Assembly: GCF_016908325.1 (NCBI RefSeq)
Contig: NZ_JAFBDR010000012.1
Coordinates: 56,589 to 120,588, forward strand
Direction of reading: 5' to 3'
Length of the DNA: 64,000 nucleotides
DNA from: Aquibacillus albus
GTDB taxonomy: Bacteria; Bacillota; Bacilli; Bacillales; Amphibacillaceae
This document shows, in pieces, positions 2,808 to 9,301 of the stretch (position 1 is its first letter; each line of letters starts with the position of its first letter). Below the pieces are notes generated by a model that did not search any database, was not told the DNA's origin, and saw nothing but the letters and a program-made list of their open reading frames with translations. A program made the translations under genes and the position numbers.

Positions 2808-4343
2808 TTAAGTTAATTCCCCGCGTTGTTCACGTTTTTGCCGCTTGCGGTCTTTCCTTTTTATTTTTACGATTTCATGATCAATTGCTTTATAGAAGGA
2901 GAATGCCATTAACATCATAATAACTGAAAATGGCAGTGCAGCAATGATTAACATATTTTGTAGACCTGGCGTACCGCCAAAGTAAACAATGATTGCTGCC
3001 AACGCTGACATCGTAAGTCCCCATGTGATTTTAACCGAATTAGCAGGATTGATAGAGCCACCTGTACTTAGCATTCCCAGCACAAACGTTGCTGAATCAG
3101 CTGAAGTGATAAAAAAGACGGCAATCACGATGATGGTAATTAATGACATCATTATGCCTAACGGATAGTGCTGTAACACGCCAAACGTAGTTGTTTCTAG
3201 TGTGTACTCAGAAATGAGATCAATTCCGTTTTGCTCAATATTCAATGCGGAAACACCAAATACGGCAAAAAAGATAAAGCACACAATGGCTGGTACAAAT
3301 AATACACCAAGCATAAATTCTTTAATGGTACGGCCTTTGGATATTCTAGCGATAAATATGCCTACAAATGGTGCCCATGAAATCCACCATGCCCAGTAGA
3401 AAATAGTCCAACTGTTTATCCATGTACGGCCTTGTTCATTAAGCGGCGATAGGTAAAAGCTCATATGAAAAAAATTAGCTATGTAGCCACCAAGTGTTGT
3501 TATAAACATGTTTAAAATGTATAACGTAGGTCCTACAATGAATAGAAGAAGCATTAGTATTAATCCGAGCACCATATTGGCGTTACTCAAGTGTTTAATA
3601 CCTTTACCAATTCCAGACCACGCGGAAATGATGAACAGCACGGTGGCAACAACAAGAATCGCTAATTGCATTCCAAAGTTATTTGGTGTGCCAAATAGAT
3701 AAGACAATCCGCCGTTAATTTGTGCGGATCCAAAACCTAGCGTAGAAGCTACCCCGACAATCGTTGCAAAAATAGCTAATATATCAATTAATGTTCCTGG
3801 CTTGCCTCGCATACTTTTTTCGCCAAATACAGGTATGAGTGTTGCACTAATTAGTCCTGGGTAATCCTTTCGAAATTTGAAATATGCTAAAACAAGTGCT
3901 ACAACGGCGTACACTGCCCAGGCATGTATCCCCCAATGGAAAAAGGAATATTGAAGCGACTCTTTAATTGCCTCGTTGGATCCGACCTCCGCACCTGGTG
4001 GGCTTTTAAATGCATGGGAAATTGGTTCTGCAGTTGTCCAAAAAACAAGTCCAATTCCCATCCCTGCACTAAATAGCATGGCAAACCATGTAGCTAATTT
4101 AAAGTCAGGTTTATCATCGTCTTTACCTAATTTAATTTTTCCAAACCGAGAAAAAATTAAATAGATACAGAAAGCTAATAACAACATAATAATTAATAGG
4201 TAGTACCAACCAAATGCTTTAGAAATAAATGCTGTTATGTTTGATGTTACGCTTTGTAAATGTCCGGGAGCAATCCCACCCCATAGTACTAACACAACGC
4301 AAATAAGTAATGCGTACCAAAAAACCGAGCTTATATTCTTCAC
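2808..4343 (-). CDS. opuD: BCCT family glycine betaine/carnitine/choline transporter
   Basis: A 511-residue, 12-segment secondary carrier of the betaine-choline-carnitine family. Family hallmarks are seen: GMGIGLVFWTTAEP (about residues 93-106) in the sodium and substrate region, and the aromatic segment FYWAWWISWAPFVGIF (about 312-327), whose tryptophans bind trimethylammonium compounds. The C-terminus is a basic cytoplasmic tail rich in Lys and Arg, typical of osmosensing members. OpuD of Bacillus subtilis is 512 residues, so the gene is full length. It would import glycine betaine by sodium symport under high osmolarity. Exact substrate (betaine, choline or ectoine) is inferred from the family. 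It is transcribed alone, convergent to the MFS gene. Confidence 0.85.
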   Translation of the reverse strand: MKNISSVFWYALLICVVLVLWGGIAPGHLQSVTSNITAFISKAFGWYYLLIIMLLLAFCIYLIFSRFGKIKLGKDDDKPDFKLATWFAMLFSAGMGIGLVFWTTAEPISHAFKSPPGAEVGSNEAIKESLQYSFFHWGIHAWAVYAVVALVLAYFKFRKDYPGLISATLIPVFGEKSMRGKPGTLIDILAIFATIVGVASTLGFGSAQINGGLSYLFGTPNNFGMQLAILVVATVLFIISAWSGIGKGIKHLSNANMVLGLILMLLLFIVGPTLYILNMFITTLGGYIANFFHMSFYLSPLNEQGRTWINSWTIFYWAWWISWAPFVGIFIARISKGRTIKEFMLGVLFVPAIVCFIFFAVFGVSALNIEQNGIDLISEYTLETTTFGVLQHYPLGIMMSLITIIVIAVFFITSADSATFVLGMLSTGGSINPANSVKITWGLTMSALAAIIVYFGGTPGLQNMLIIAALPFSVIMMLMAFSFYKAIDHEIVKIKRKDRKRQKREQRGELT

Positions 4344-4472: not shown

Positions 4473-4708
4473 AAAATGCGTATCGGTGACAATTTTTTAT
4501 GTCATGGAGAATATTTCCTTGGAAATAATTGCGGTGTTATGTCGAATCAATTCCTTCATAAGAGACAATTTAACAGAAAGTGACAAATCAAATGTGACAG
4601 GGCTTTTCGCAAAGTGTGTCGTTGATAGAATTTTGTTTTGTATCATCTATTAAAGATTGTACGTAGACACGGAGGCCTTAGTTAAACAAGCACTAACCAA
4701 GACTATTC

Positions 4709-4727
4709 GTATACCATTGCGGTATAC
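4709..4727 (+). promoter_or_regulatory. inverted-repeat operator candidate upstream of the dsbA-like gene
   Basis: GTATACC, a 5-base spacer ATTGC, then GGTATAC: a perfect 7+7 palindrome eight bases before a TATAAT. The half-sites ATACC/GGTAT match those of the three yrk operators 1 kb downstream, but the spacer is five rather than six bases. A related repressor or the same regulator could bind here; this is inferred. Confidence 0.45.
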
Positions 4728-4762
4728 TAATTCTTATAATAAGGTAAATGGAGGGATGAATG

Positions 4763-5398
4763 ATGCACATTGAAATGTGGACGGACTTTGCTTGACCGTT
4801 TTGCTATATTGGCAAAAGGCGTCTGGAGGGCGCTCTTCAACAGATTGACCATCCAATTGAAGTTACTTATAGATGCTTCGAATTGGATCCCACAATGGAA
4901 CGAGATGTAAAAGAAAATATCTATGAAAAATTATCGAAAAAATATGGAATGAGTATCGAGGAAGCGAAAGCAAATACCCAGAACATGGTGCAAATGGCGA
5001 AAGAGGCTGGCTTGGATTATCAGATGGATACACTCATTTTGACTAATACATTTGATGCCCATCGGTTGGCTGTTTTCGCTAAGAAACATGGTCTTATGAA
5101 AGAAATGACAGAAAGAATTTTACATGCTTATTTTTCTGAATCCAAGCACATTGGTAATCACGAAACATTAGCGGAACTTGCTGAGGAAGTTGGATTGAAT
5201 CGAGAAGCGGTAGTTCATATGCTTGAAAGCGATGAGATGGAGAAAGAAGTACGTGCTGATGAGCAACAAGCTAATGAGTATGCCATTAGTGGTGTGCCTT
5301 TCTTTCTCATTAACAAAAAGTACGCCCTCAATGGTGCACAGCCAACAGAGGTTTTTGTCCAAGCATTGGAAAAAGTGATAGCAGAAGATCAATCATAA
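4763..5398 (+). CDS. DsbA/FrnE-like thiol oxidoreductase with in-frame TGA at the first active-site Cys (candidate selenoprotein)
   Basis: Read through one TGA, this is a complete 211-residue FrnE-type DsbA protein: beta strand HIEMWTDFA, then TGA-P-F-C-Y-I-G-K-R-R where the family has CPFCYIGKRR, the inserted helical domain (about 45-165) and the cis-Pro strand ISGVPFFLINKKYALNGA near 170-187. The TGA (4793-4795, codon 11) falls exactly on the nucleophilic cysteine codon; Cys14 is kept. Everything after it is intact, so decay is limited to that codon or the codon means selenocysteine. A ribosome site GGAGGGATGA precedes ATG 4763. An internal ATG at 4883 would drop the redox motif and is unlikely to be the real start. 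A hairpin that could serve as SECIS follows at 4816-4837. Selenocysteine machinery is not in this window. A TGC/TGT to TGA nonsense mutation is the alternative. Family assignment is secure; decoding is not. Confidence 0.75.
4816..4837 (+). promoter_or_regulatory. candidate SECIS-like hairpin
   Basis: AAGGCG pairs with CGC-U-CUU, giving 6 bp with one bulged U (4834) and a nine-base G-rich loop (4822-4830). The loop starts 26 nt after the TGA, within the range usual for bacterial SECIS elements, and includes GG. A second hairpin, TTTTGC/GCAAAA (4799-4817), lies nearer the TGA and competes with it. Bacterial SECIS elements vary greatly, so this is only suggestive. Confidence 0.35.
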
Positions 5399-5401
5399 AT
5401 A

Positions 5402-5437
5402 GATGCTGGTTACTGGTTGAAAAGTAACCAGCATTTA
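5402..5437 (+). terminator. terminator after the dsbA-like gene
   Basis: ATGCTGGTTACT pairs with AGTAACCAGCAT just after the stop, followed by a short TTT run. It separates this gene from the yrk-type operon. Confidence 0.75.
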
Positions 5438-5649
5438 AACAACTGTATAGAAGATATCATTAAAGCAAGAGCCATGTTGCTGATTCTGAAGCGGGAGATT
5501 TCCACTCCAACAATTTAAACAAACGTTTGATCAAATAGAGAGAACAATGAAAACTTCAGCAGGGTACTGAGCAACGTTTGATTGAGTGTACCCACTAGCG
5601 TCTCGTATGGAATGAGAAGAGGATGGAAACAAGTTTATATCTCTTTCGG

Positions 5650-5678
5650 TTGACAATATACCATAACGGGTATAAAAT
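5650..5678 (+). promoter_or_regulatory. sulfur-operon promoter P1 with CsoR/CstR-type operator
   Basis: TTGACA (5650-5655), 17-base spacer, TAAAAT (5673-5678). The spacer contains ATACCATAACGGGTAT (5658-5673), the A/T-flanked CC-N6-GG dyad bound by CsoR-family repressors. A repressor there would block RNA polymerase. Confidence 0.7.
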
Positions 5679-5730
5679 ATGACTTGTCAACTGCTCCTAA
5701 AGCTAGTGAATAGGAGCGAAAAATTTTTAG

Positions 5731-5759
5731 TTGACAAAATACCTGTATGGGTATAATAT
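5731..5759 (+). promoter_or_regulatory. sulfur-operon promoter P2 with CsoR/CstR-type operator
   Basis: TTGACA (5731-5736), 17-base spacer, TAATAT (5754-5759), with the operator ATACCTGTATGGGTAT at 5739-5754. Best-placed promoter of the set relative to the yrkE start. Confidence 0.75.
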
Positions 5760-5832
5760 GAAAAGTGTTTTAACGGTTTGGACTAATTAACCGGACAGGA
5801 ATTTCTGGATTAAAAAGAAGGGCTAATTTTTT

Positions 5833-5861
5833 TTGAGACAAAATATACCCTATAGGGTAAT
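5833..5861 (+). promoter_or_regulatory. third CsoR/CstR-type operator, next to the yrkE ribosome site
   Basis: TACCCTATAGGGTA (5846-5859) is a perfect 14-bp palindrome. TTGAGA (5833-5838) and GGTAAT (5856-5861) mimic a promoter, but a start from it would fall inside the ribosome site GAGGAGG (5869-5875), so it more likely acts as an extra operator on P1/P2 transcripts' template. Confidence 0.65.
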
Positions 5862-5882: not shown

Positions 5883-6362
5883 ATGTCTGATAGAAAGAAA
5901 ACAACCATTGTCCTGTTCAGTGGTGATTACGATAAAACAATGGCAGCCTATATTATTGCAAACGGGGCGGCCGCTTATGATCATGAAGTTACTATTTTCC
6001 ACACTTTTTGGGGGTTAAATGCACTACGGAAAGACACACAAGTGCCAGTAAATAAAGGCTTCTTAGAAAAAATGTTTGGAAAAATGATGCCACGTGGCGC
6101 CGATAAAATGAGGCTTTCAAAAATGCATTTTGCAGGAATGGGTCCAAAAATGATTAAACAAGTGATGAAAAAGCATAATGCGCTGTCTTTACCACAACTA
6201 GTTGAAATGGCACAAGAACAAGAGGTGAAGCTAATTGCATGCACGATGACGATGGATCTTCTTGGTCTGCAAAAAGAAGAGTTGCTCGATGGGCTAGATT
6301 ATGCAGGAGTTGCTGCTTATATCGGTGACGCAGAAGAAGGAAACGTAAATCTGTTTATCTAG
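5883..6362 (+). CDS. yrkE: DsrE/DsrF family sulfur-relay protein (YrkE-like)
   Basis: A 159-residue DsrE-like protein, matching the size of Bacillus subtilis YrkE. It starts TTIVLFSGDYDKTMAAYIIA, the first strand and helix of the DsrE fold, and carries FHTFWGLNALR, a stretch conserved in the subfamily. A conserved cysteine near residue 120 (LIACTMTMDLLG) is the likely persulfide carrier. Members pass sulfane sulfur between rhodaneses and TusA proteins. It is the first gene of a co-directional set of five (DsrE, TusA-rhodanese, rhodanese-hydrolase, TusA, TauE) in the same order as yrkEFHIJ. GAGGAGG lies eight bases before the ATG. Expression should rise when sulfide or persulfide stress releases the CstR-type repressor; that is inferred from the operators. 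Confidence 0.85.
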   Translation: MSDRKKTTIVLFSGDYDKTMAAYIIANGAAAYDHEVTIFHTFWGLNALRKDTQVPVNKGFLEKMFGKMMPRGADKMRLSKMHFAGMGPKMIKQVMKKHNALSLPQLVEMAQEQEVKLIACTMTMDLLGLQKEELLDGLDYAGVAAYIGDAEEGNVNLFI

Positions 6363-6479
6363 TAACCGTAGAAAGGATAAGCAGGCATATCAAATGAAAA
6401 AATACACGTGTTATAAAAGAAAAATTTTAAAAGTGAAAAATACCATGACAGGTAATAAAAATAGGAGGTTGTATGTTAA

Positions 6480-7055
6480 ATGGAAATGATCAATACTGAT
6501 ATTGTTTTAGATGCCAAAGGGTTAGCTTGCCCTATGCCAATTGTAAAAACGAAGAAAGCAATGAATCACTTAGAGCCTGGGCAAGTGATAGAGGTTCAGG
6601 CAACGGATAAAGGGTCAAAAGCAGACTTGAAAGCATGGGCAGAAAGTTCAGGTCATCAATATTTAGGAACAGTAGAAGCTGGTAATGTGTTAAAGCATTA
6701 TCTTCGTAAAGCAAGTGGAGAAGAAAATATTCCAAAGAAGCATCCGCATGTCATGAAAAACGAGGAATTAGAGCAAAAACTTTCATCCAGTGAGGAATTG
6801 ACTGTGCTAGATGTAAGAGAACATGCCGAATACGTGTTTAGTCACATTCCAAAGGCTAAATCAATTCCGCTTGGGGAGTTAGAGAATCGTTTCCATGAAT
6901 TACATTCTGAAACTCCAATTTATGTCGTTTGTCGAACTGGAAATCGTAGTGATTTAGCAGCACAAAAGCTTGCGAATAAAGGATTTAAACACGTAGTAAA
7001 TGTTGTCCCAGGGATGAGCGAGTGGAAAGGTCAAACGGAAAAAACGGTAGATTAA
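6480..7055 (+). CDS. yrkF: TusA-rhodanese fusion sulfurtransferase (YrkF-like)
   Basis: A 191-residue fusion. The N-terminal TusA domain (about 1-80) has the signature GLACPMPIVKTKKA with the persulfide-forming Cys; the C-terminal rhodanese domain (about 95-190) has the active loop CRTGNRS with its catalytic cysteine. It would take sulfur from persulfides and hand it on between its own domains or to the neighbouring DsrE and TusA proteins. AGGAGG sits 11 bases before ATG 6480; ATG 6486 is an alternative. The TusA half is close to the stand-alone TusA at 8239, sharing the GLACPMPIVKTKKA block, which points to duplication within the operon. Confidence 0.9.
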   Translation: MEMINTDIVLDAKGLACPMPIVKTKKAMNHLEPGQVIEVQATDKGSKADLKAWAESSGHQYLGTVEAGNVLKHYLRKASGEENIPKKHPHVMKNEELEQKLSSSEELTVLDVREHAEYVFSHIPKAKSIPLGELENRFHELHSETPIYVVCRTGNRSDLAAQKLANKGFKHVVNVVPGMSEWKGQTEKTVD

Positions 7056-7094
7056 ATTTTTTTGAATAAAAATATACAGTGGGAGGTATTTCGG

Positions 7095-8218
7095 ATGACA
7101 ATAAGAGAAATGAGTGCAAAAGAAGTAACACAAAAAGTAATCAATAAAGATGAGTTATTTATTTTAGATGTTCGGAATGAAGATGCTTTTAGTGATTGGA
7201 AAATGGAAGGAGCGAACTTTGATTATTTAAATGTCCCTTACTTCGAGCTATTAGATGGGGTGGAGGGTATTTTGGGTAAACTTCCATCAGACAAAGAGAT
7301 TTTGGTTGTATGTGCAAAAGAAGGCTCATCTGTTTTGGTTGCTGATATGCTTTCTGACGAAGGGTTAGATGTTTCTTATTTAAAAGGCGGTATGAAAGCA
7401 TGGAGCGAACATTTAGAACCTGTAAAAGTAGGAGACTTAAAAGATGGTGGAGAAATTTATCAATTTGTCCGAATTGGAAAAGGCTGTTTATCCTACATGG
7501 TTATTTCCAATGGAGAGGCTGCCATAGTTGATGCAACGCGGATGGTGGATGTATTGATTTTGCCCGTGATATGGATGTGGAAATTACAAATGTTTTCGAT
7601 ACACATCTACACGCTGATCACATTTCCGGTGGTCGTGCCATTGCGGAAAGAACAAATGCAACGTACTGGCTGCCACCAAAAGATGCAGTGGAAGCTACCT
7701 TTGATTATCAGCCATTAGAAGGTGGCACAAATGTAACGATCGGCAACACAACATTAACGATTCACGCTTTATATTCACCAGGTCATACAATCGGATCAAC
7801 ATCTTTTGTTGTCGACGAGAAATTTTTACTTTCTGGTGACATTTTATTCATTGACTCTATAGGAAGACCTGATTTAGCAGGGAAGGCAGAAGATTGGGTA
7901 GACGATTTAAGAGAAAGTCTCTTCACCCGTTATCGCGAACTACCAGAGGAACTCCTTGTTCTTCCAGCACATTTCATGATCATCGATGAACTAAATGAAG
8001 ACGGGAGTGTCTCTGAAACATTGGGTACTCTATTTGAAAAAAACCATGGATTAAACATGAAAGACGATACGGCATTTAGAAAATTAGTAACGGAAAATTT
8101 GCCACCGCAACCAAATGCTTACGAAGAAATACGTGAAACAAATATGGGGAAAATCAGTCCAGATAATGAAAAACAACGTGAAATGGAAATCGGTCCAAAT
8201 CGTTGTGCAGTTCGATAA
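7095..8218 (+). pseudogene. yrkH: rhodanese-MBL hydrolase fusion (YrkH-like) with a one-base frameshift
   Basis: A GGGAGG (7081-7086) precedes ATG 7095. The first frame encodes an N-terminal rhodanese-like domain (about 1-110; loop VCAKEGSS with Cys) and the start of a metallo-beta-lactamase domain. At about 7551-7553 the reading continues in the frame one base back: [17 protein letters not shown] is followed by [16 protein letters not shown] in the other frame. The second part has the metal motif [11 protein letters not shown], then [14 protein letters not shown] and PAHF, as in persulfide dioxygenases. The intact protein would be about 374 residues and oxidise persulfides to sulfite for export by the TauE neighbour. 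Both parts look well preserved, so it is a recent mutation, a sequencing error, or rarely a programmed shift. No slippery heptamer is evident at the break. Confidence 0.8.
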
Positions 8219-8238
8219 CTATTAGGAGGAGATAAGCG

Positions 8239-8466
8239 ATGAACGTAACAAAAGTATTAAATGCAAAAGGTTTAGCATGTCCAATGCCAATTGTTAAAAC
8301 AAAAAAAGCCATCAATGAATTAGAAACAGGAGAAATTATAGAAATTCATGCAACAGACAAAGGCGCCAAAAGTGACCTTGCCGCATGGGCAAAGTCAGGC
8401 GGTCATGAATTGCTAAAAGATACAGAAGAAGACGGTGTTTTAAAGTTCTGGGTGAAAAAAGGGTAA
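8239..8466 (+). CDS. yrkI: TusA family sulfurtransferase (YrkI-like)
   Basis: A 75-residue single-domain TusA protein with the persulfide motif GLACPMPIVKTKKA (Cys14) and the conserved ATDKGAKSDLAAWA block of the second half. It accepts sulfane sulfur from rhodanese domains. AGGAGGAG precedes the ATG by eight bases. It follows the rhodanese-hydrolase gene by 20 bases. A terminator-like hairpin after it probably lowers expression of the exporter gene relative to the relay proteins. Confidence 0.9.
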   Translation: MNVTKVLNAKGLACPMPIVKTKKAINELETGEIIEIHATDKGAKSDLAAWAKSGGHELLKDTEEDGVLKFWVKKG

Positions 8467-8474
8467 ATAATGAA

Positions 8475-8502
8475 GGGAACCAGAAAACATGGTTCCCTTT
8501 TC
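8475..8502 (+). terminator. partial terminator inside the sulfur operon
   Basis: GGGAACC and GGTTCCC form a 7-bp stem followed by CTTTTC-type T-run. Located between the TusA and TauE genes, it is likely an attenuator rather than a full stop, since TauE has its own ribosome site only 12 bases further on. Confidence 0.65.
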
Positions 8503-8521
8503 TAGTTAGGAGGTAAGCTAT

Positions 8522-9301
8522 ATGGATTTTCTGTTTGTGATAACCATCTTTTTGATAGGGTTCATCGGTTCCTATATATCTGGTATGGTCGGGATCGGTG
8601 GATCAATCATAAAGTACCCTATGTTATTCTATGTTCCACCTCTATTTGGCTTGGCGGCATTTAGTGCACATGAGGTGTCAGGAATAAGTGCCATACAAGT
8701 TTTCTTTGCAACGATTGGAGGTGTATGGGCATATCGGAAAGGTGGATATTTAAATAAGACGCTCATTATTTATATGGGAGTAAGTATTTTAATTGGTAGT
8801 TTAATAGGAGGTTATGGTTCAAGGATGATGTCAGGAGAAGTTATCAATCTTGTCTATGGTATATTGGCGCTTCTAGCGGCGATTATGATGTTCCTCCCGA
8901 AAAAAGGAAAAGAGGATACCCCTACCGGTCAAGTAACCTTTAATAAATGGCTGGCAGCATTATTAGCATTCATTGTAGGTGTTGGGGCCGGTATTGTTGG
9001 GGCAGCAGGGGCATTTCTGTTGGTGCCAATTATGTTAGTTATTTTAAAATTACCAACACGTGTGACCATTGCATCTTCCTTAGCCATTACTTTTATTTCT
9101 TCCATAGGGGCTACCGTTGGAAAAATATCAACTGGTCAGGTAGCGTTTTTACCGGCATTTATCATGGTAATAGCCAGTTTGATAGCTTCTCCAATGGGAG
9201 CAAAAATGGGTCAGAAAGTAAATACAAAACTTCTACAATGGATACTGGCACTATTGATTTTGGGCACTTCAATGAAGATTTGGATAGATATTTTGATATA
9301 G
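8522..9301 (+). CDS. yrkJ: TauE/SafE family sulfite exporter (YrkJ-like)
   Basis: A 259-residue membrane protein with about eight hydrophobic segments and the two internally repeated TauE motifs: [12 protein letters not shown] near residue 25 and [12 protein letters not shown] near 160. Family members export sulfite or organosulfonates. In this operon the expected cargo is sulfite made by persulfide oxidation in the rhodanese-hydrolase. The ribosome site TAGGAGGTAAGC is strong. B. subtilis YrkJ is of similar length. If the YrkH-like gene is truly broken, sulfite production would be lost and the exporter would serve other sources. Confidence 0.88.

Follow-up and report, generated by a model that had tools for sequence, protein, structure and literature searches.

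Selenoproteins of the DsbA family with selenocysteine (Sec) in a UxxC motif have been on record since 2006–2008 (PMC1794560, PMC2398784). In the accessible parts of the literature, the count of DsbA-like selenoproteins stood in 2016 at 45 proteins in 41 organisms (PMC5029168), and that for the Bacillales stood in 2006 at 3 selenoproteins from 3 families (PMC1794560). The closest described groups, DsbA 1 of the GOS survey (PMC2398784) and DsbA-like form 1 (PMC13188914), have in their accessible descriptions the DSBA domain PF01323, a predicted Sec in the first position of CxxC and a need for the Sec machinery. FrnE is, in the available sections of PMC8945050, a cytoplasmic thiol oxidoreductase and disulfide reductase of the DsbA family, and the mutant of Deinococcus radiodurans shows higher sensitivity to cadmium and diamide; a C-terminal CxxxxC tail is considered to assist in regenerating the enzyme, and some FrnE proteins are without it, so that the tail does not define the subfamily (PMC8945050). 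Lmo1059 of Listeria, which we liken by its partial description only, carries CPFC and is reported to reduce GSSG (PMC10715225). Within a partial coverage of the literature we found no mention of a FrnE-type or Bacillales DsbA selenoprotein, and an earlier notice is possible; by title, no bacterial study pairs FrnE with selenocysteine, the one study that turned up on selenoproteins in connection with Bacillaceae deals with tick flora, none was found for selenoprotein with Neobacillus, and the main text of a 2026 review (PMC13188914) holds no word starting with Bacill.

The locus studied here lies on the forward strand of a 64,000-nucleotide stretch of Aquibacillus albus DNA, which we call the window. 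From the ATG at 4763 (ATG 4760 is an alternative possible start), preceded by a Shine-Dalgarno-like GGAGGG at 4750–4755, the frame reads MHIEMWTDFA-TGA-PFCYIGKRR, with the TGA as codon 11 (4793–4795), and beyond it runs uninterrupted up to the TAA at 5396–5398, for a total of 211 codons (4763–5398). A previous reading from sequence alone (hereafter, the sequence-only reading) had described this frame in the same way, and had placed the TGA at the nucleophilic Cys of a DsbA/FrnE oxidoreductase. In agreement with this, the protein, with the TGA read as Cys, matches the DSBA family domain PF01323 with 154.5 bits over residues 3–202, and its best solved relatives are the FrnE entries of D. radiodurans (DR_0659; 5cnw, 5cp1; 157.4 bits, E 4e-45, residues 2–209), whose CPWC aligns on the UPFC motif of the window protein. 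None of the NCBIfam models exceeded its own cut-off for this protein. By its domain and its kinship with FrnE, it belongs to the FrnE subfamily of the DsbA family. It differs from D. radiodurans FrnE in the predicted Sec in place of Cys, and it does not have the C-terminal CxxxxC, which is likewise absent from 18 others and present in 68 of the 87 genes compared (the window's set included). The fourth position of the motif, Cys14 (4802–4804), is retained as the sequence-only reading had noted: it is TGC in all 80 aligned stretches (see below) and Cys in 86 of 86 TGA genes. Pro179 of GVPFF (5297–5299) is presumably the cis-Pro of the thioredoxin fold, and an [VI]P[FC][FYW] motif is found past residue 150 in 82 of the 86 TGA genes.

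We consider it very probable, from sequence comparisons, that 4763–5398 encodes a selenoprotein, a FrnE-type DsbA oxidoreductase in which the UGA at codon 11, at the position of the first Cys in CPFC, is predicted to specify Sec. One alternative is that the TGA, a single base away from TGC and TGT, arose from a Cys codon by nonsense mutation or is an error in base calling, so that only a shortened protein is made; a neighbouring gene at 7062–8218 also seems frameshifted, and most database forms start behind the TGA (see below). A scan of genome contigs found 98 relatives, of which 80 loci were kept, and codon 11 is TGA in 79 of these 80 (78 by pattern and L097 by direct reading), not the Cys codon that the sequence-only reading had named as a possible outcome of such an alignment. 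The sole exception is the TGT of L032, which comes from a metagenome-assembled genome. Record names among the TGA-scan loci include Neobacillus, Mesobacillus, Cytobacillus, Fictibacillus, Peribacillus and Niallia, as well as Planomicrobium, Aquibacillus, Salinibacillus, Halalkalibacter and Ammoniphilus. Records titled Pseudomonas ISL-84 and Chryseobacterium ISL-80 fall among Bacillaceae in the tree described below, and these titles are probably misnamed or contaminated. Since the same TGA recurs in different genera, neither a sequencing error nor an isolated nonsense mutation can account for it. Codons 3–10, upstream of the TGA, encode conserved residues (in 86 of 86 genes at positions 3–8, in 85 of 86 at 9 and 10) and vary in their third bases (for Thr7: ACT 46, ACA 29, ACG 7, ACC 4): the segment before the TGA is under selection as protein. 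With this and the conservation of the stretch behind the TGA, mutation or error is an extremely unlikely explanation.

Surveys at two further taxonomic levels gave the same picture. Some match is present in 146 of the 159 genomes of the taxonomic family to which the window belongs; among the matches listed, seven genomes have the TGA form (identity 72–100%), and every other match is at most 56% identical and without internal stop. The window's genome has a single match, which is the TGA form, and two matches each occur in G010, G012, G014 and G109. The only further genome of the window's genus has the TGA as well. Among 398 genomes drawn evenly from the class, 11 match at E <= 1e-80, a limit chosen to pick the orthologue group after the family survey had been run, and all 11 contain one TGA. 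Thus, an in-frame UGA at the catalytic Cys is conserved in the loci and in the class-level orthologues.

Published rules for bacterial SECIS elements, in the accessible text of PMC13188914, include a loop of 3–9 nt, a stem of 4–16 bp, a G within the first two loop positions, 16–37 nt from the UGA and a minimum free energy of at most -7.5 kcal/mol. The predicted hairpin of the window (4818–4834) agrees with all of them: 4818–4824 pairs with 4828–4834 in a 7-bp stem, whose last pair is U-G, closing a GGA loop (4825–4827); it is placed 29 nt after the TGA, the hairpin itself beginning 22 bases behind the UGA, and its fold energy is -8.3 kcal/mol for a 23-nt stretch picked by hand. It lies inside the 4816–4837 hairpin for which the sequence-only reading had claimed a fitting SECIS distance. 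The energy threshold is also reached by L022 (-11.4), L041 (-10.0) and L100 (-7.6); the Cys locus L032 misses it (-1.8) and has lost the stem. Folded as a single sequence, the TGA region does not stand out from shuffles (z -1.30, -1.25 and -1.55), and an Rfam scan of 4500–5500 at a loose threshold returned no SECIS family; three microRNA matches in that scan (E 4.4–8.2) were discarded. The case for a hairpin beyond chance thus comes from conservation across loci, not from the window's own fold.

For this, we aligned without gaps 80 stretches of 60 nt starting at the TGA (the window and 79 loci). RNAalifold recovered the stem (columns 26–32 with 36–42) and, upstream of it, a small conserved hairpin (columns 10–13 with 19–22), which in the window spans 4802–4814 and pairs UGC 4802–4804 with GCA 4812–4814; in this small hairpin 99.5% of cells are paired and no pair is changed on both sides. 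Over the 68 distinct sequences, 98.5% of the 612 cells of a chosen nine-pair structure can pair, versus 23–66% when the partners are slid. Changes on both sides of a pair affect 20 cells in two pairs (e.g. G-C to A-U in columns 29/39), versus a shuffle mean of 7.2; the number of pairs with such double changes (2) and that of further pair types (5) do not exceed shuffles, of which 460 and 463 of 500, respectively, reach them. Columns 32–36 read TGGAG in 61, TGGAA in 14 and TGGAT in 11 of the 86 TGA genes. Synonymous codon choice points the same way: across codons 12–26 of 83 TGA genes, codon sameness is 0.338 above expectation, versus 0.079 after codon 30; none of 161 other stretches of 15 codons exceeds 0.122, and a value of 0.338 was not attained in any of 20,000 random 15-codon draws. 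Sameness is 1.00 at Cys14, Gly17, Arg20 and Leu21 where the residue is kept. In the stretch with the hairpin, the nucleotides are more conserved than the protein sequence requires.

The machinery for Sec insertion is present in the window's genome (4.41 Mb, 61 contigs). The sequence-only reading had suggested looking there for selA, selB, selC (tRNA-Sec) and selD, whose absence it took as counting against a selenoprotein, and all four were found. The gene for tRNA-Sec (C28:53596–53688) scores 64.4 bits against a cut-off of 47 and has the anticodon tca; it shares its contig with selB (C28:51196–53049) and selA (C28:49280–50656). The other 27 of the 28 matches to this tRNA model fell below the cut-off and were discounted, being presumably ordinary tRNAs. 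The selD gene (C40:4989–5915, locus L017) contains one in-frame TGA, in KGG-TGA-GCK, and is itself predicted to be a selenoprotein gene. Among the 159 genomes of the family, selA exceeds the cut-off in 32, including all seven with the TGA form (Fisher p 7.5e-6), and in the class draw (n = 398) it is found in 11 of 11 genomes with a TGA orthologue versus 75 of 387 others (Fisher p 2.8e-8), both tests ignoring shared ancestry. Of the genomes behind the loci, 50 of 80 were tested for tRNA-Sec, and 49 of these 50 have it over the cut-off: 48 of 49 TGA genomes, together with the Cys genome of L032. The TGA genome where it was not found is the metagenome-assembled genome of L025.

How databases present these proteins bears on the remaining alternatives. 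We examined 120 listed relatives out of 7,297, named mostly, where a name is given, as DsbA family oxidoreductase. By pattern, 97 of the 120 are without the start that bears the motif, two of them the window's own, and 93 of these 97 begin with MGK[RK][RH]L, directly behind the motif; 16 of the 120 have Trp at the place of the TGA (P0002–P0005, P0007–P0009, P0011, P0012, P0014, P0015, P0019, P0020, P0034, P0070 and P0088) and seven have Cys. The Trp entries probably result from gene calling with a code in which TGA is Trp, and the seven Cys entries, known here from protein records alone, are apparently Cys-coded forms. The expectation of the sequence-only reading that gene finders would annotate a truncated frame from an internal ATG thus held for the shortening itself, and failed in its details: the codon at 4883, where it had placed that ATG, is TTG, the internal ATG, from which the 167-residue P0013 begins, lies at 4895, and the 196-residue P0001 starts at the ATT of codon 16.

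The Trp entries could be taken to mean that the TGA is decoded as Trp without any role for selenium, through either an altered genetic code or near-cognate read-through. However, TGA terminates nine of the 37 frames of at least 200 codons in the window (mechanical frames, not all of them genes), the database Cys forms place Cys, not Trp, at that position, and neither the agreement of the hairpin with SECIS rules nor the co-occurrence with selA fits such decoding; we therefore give it hardly any credence. The UGA and its hairpin might instead serve mainly as a regulatory switch, in which translation without selenium would stop, or restart internally to give a short product with a role of its own. 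Internal starts are available at 4808 (ATT), 4883 (TTG) and 4895 (ATG), and some are used by database entries; this alternative is also compatible with Sec insertion, rather than exclusive of it. Nevertheless, the short forms are without the entire UPFC motif, and Cys14 is invariant in the TGA genes; a switch is therefore very unlikely as the chief function. The machinery, the TGA in 79 loci and the conserved hairpin all support the claim of the sequence-only reading that the gene is a real selenoprotein rather than a nonsense mutant, with Sec insertion as the predicted outcome.

We also built a quick maximum-likelihood tree of 99 proteins with position 11 masked. Eight paralogues of the family without internal stop are set apart (SH-aLRT 99); such paralogues have the domain in common with the window protein, and CPFCYIGKRR in 14 of 23 loci caught by pattern, but differ from it in their identity, in having no internal stop and in their separate branch. 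The database Cys forms P0006 and P0010 group with the Niallia TGA form (95 and 97), and P0079/P0081 are basal. Mapping the Sec label on the tree needs seven changes, two of which are forced by well-supported branches. We read this as suggesting an early Sec form followed by several Sec-to-Cys switches, in a tree with many weak branches and an ambiguous root state. L032 has its TGT at 3031–3033, and its genome (G169) retains tRNA-Sec and an Fdh-alpha gene with one TGA; this locus has probably changed from Sec to Cys, losing its SECIS stem, in a genome that continues to use Sec.

CxxC enzymes use the first residue for attack and the second for resolution; with Sec as the first, the reaction is expected to be faster and to take place at lower pH. 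In the mechanism that we propose, SelB and tRNA-Sec, helped by the hairpin behind the UGA, would insert Sec at codon 11; the protein would then act as a thiol-disulfide oxidoreductase in defence against thiol stress, a role modelled on FrnE, and probably in the cytosol, as FrnE is described as cytoplasmic and the residues ahead of the motif do not resemble a signal peptide. Sec11 would attack a disulfide as nucleophile, Cys14, the predicted resolving residue, would resolve the selenyl-sulfide, and a thioredoxin-like donor may renew the enzyme. Because the window protein does not have the CxxxxC tail, its renewal may run otherwise than in D. radiodurans FrnE, and, since only part of the genes have the tail, the redox partner may vary within the family. 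The putative enzymatic role is taken from relatives only.

The adjoining sulfur operon was rejected as an indication of function, because seven neighbours of the gene in the window are almost without match in the flanks (up to 3 kb per side) of the 80 loci: BCCT, DsrE, TusA-rhodanese, rhodanese and TauE have none there, and MFS and MBL have one each, at less than 30% identity. Nearby, a rhodanese frame (7062–7718) and a metallo-beta-lactamase frame (7571–8218) overlap out of frame with each other, as if a single rhodanese-MBL gene had been split by a frameshift or an assembly error. Three ATACC...GGGTA(T) boxes at 5658–5859 precede the DsrE / TusA-rhodanese / rhodanese-MBL / TauE run (5883–9301) and, in our view, recall CstR-type operators of persulfide-responsive operons. 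Upstream of the selenoprotein gene, a perfect inverted repeat, GTATACC-N5-GGTATAC (4709–4727), overlaps a possible -10 box. The upstream stretches listed for relatives do not show this repeat, and many of them share CGTGTAAAA and a TATACTA box instead.

In comparison with GOS DsbA 1 and form 1, judged by their descriptions only and in the accessible text, where neither the FrnE subfamily nor Bacillales members are named, the present group differs in having a conserved hairpin of its own and database entries that mostly do not show the Sec residue. By sequence, the Sec form of FrnE is likely a widespread, mis-annotated Bacillales addition to the known DsbA-like UxxC selenoproteins. As mostly annotated, the protein lacks the catalytic residue, and studies built on the annotation would likely handle an inactive protein; the conserved predicted SECIS is an aid for finding more Bacillales selenoproteins, and the gene family probably offers natural Sec/Cys pairs of one enzyme. 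The search for selenoproteins in the window's genome covered SelD and Fdh-alpha, and its five Fdh-alpha-like genes are all without internal stop, so this genome uses Sec without a selenoprotein formate dehydrogenase among the Fdh-alpha-like genes found. Elsewhere, an Fdh-alpha gene with one TGA occurs in at least 27 of 53 distinct genomes (56 genome handles, duplicates being judged by identical match coordinates); as this is only part of the genomes listed, the Sec form of FrnE is not simply the companion of a selenoprotein formate dehydrogenase. A bolder possibility, which we advance tentatively and regard as rather doubtful, is that this protein is the main client sustaining the Sec machinery in Bacillales without selenoprotein formate dehydrogenase, with repeated later switches from Sec to Cys. 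If true, Sec would be kept in these bacteria for a thiol-stress enzyme, and not for a formate enzyme.
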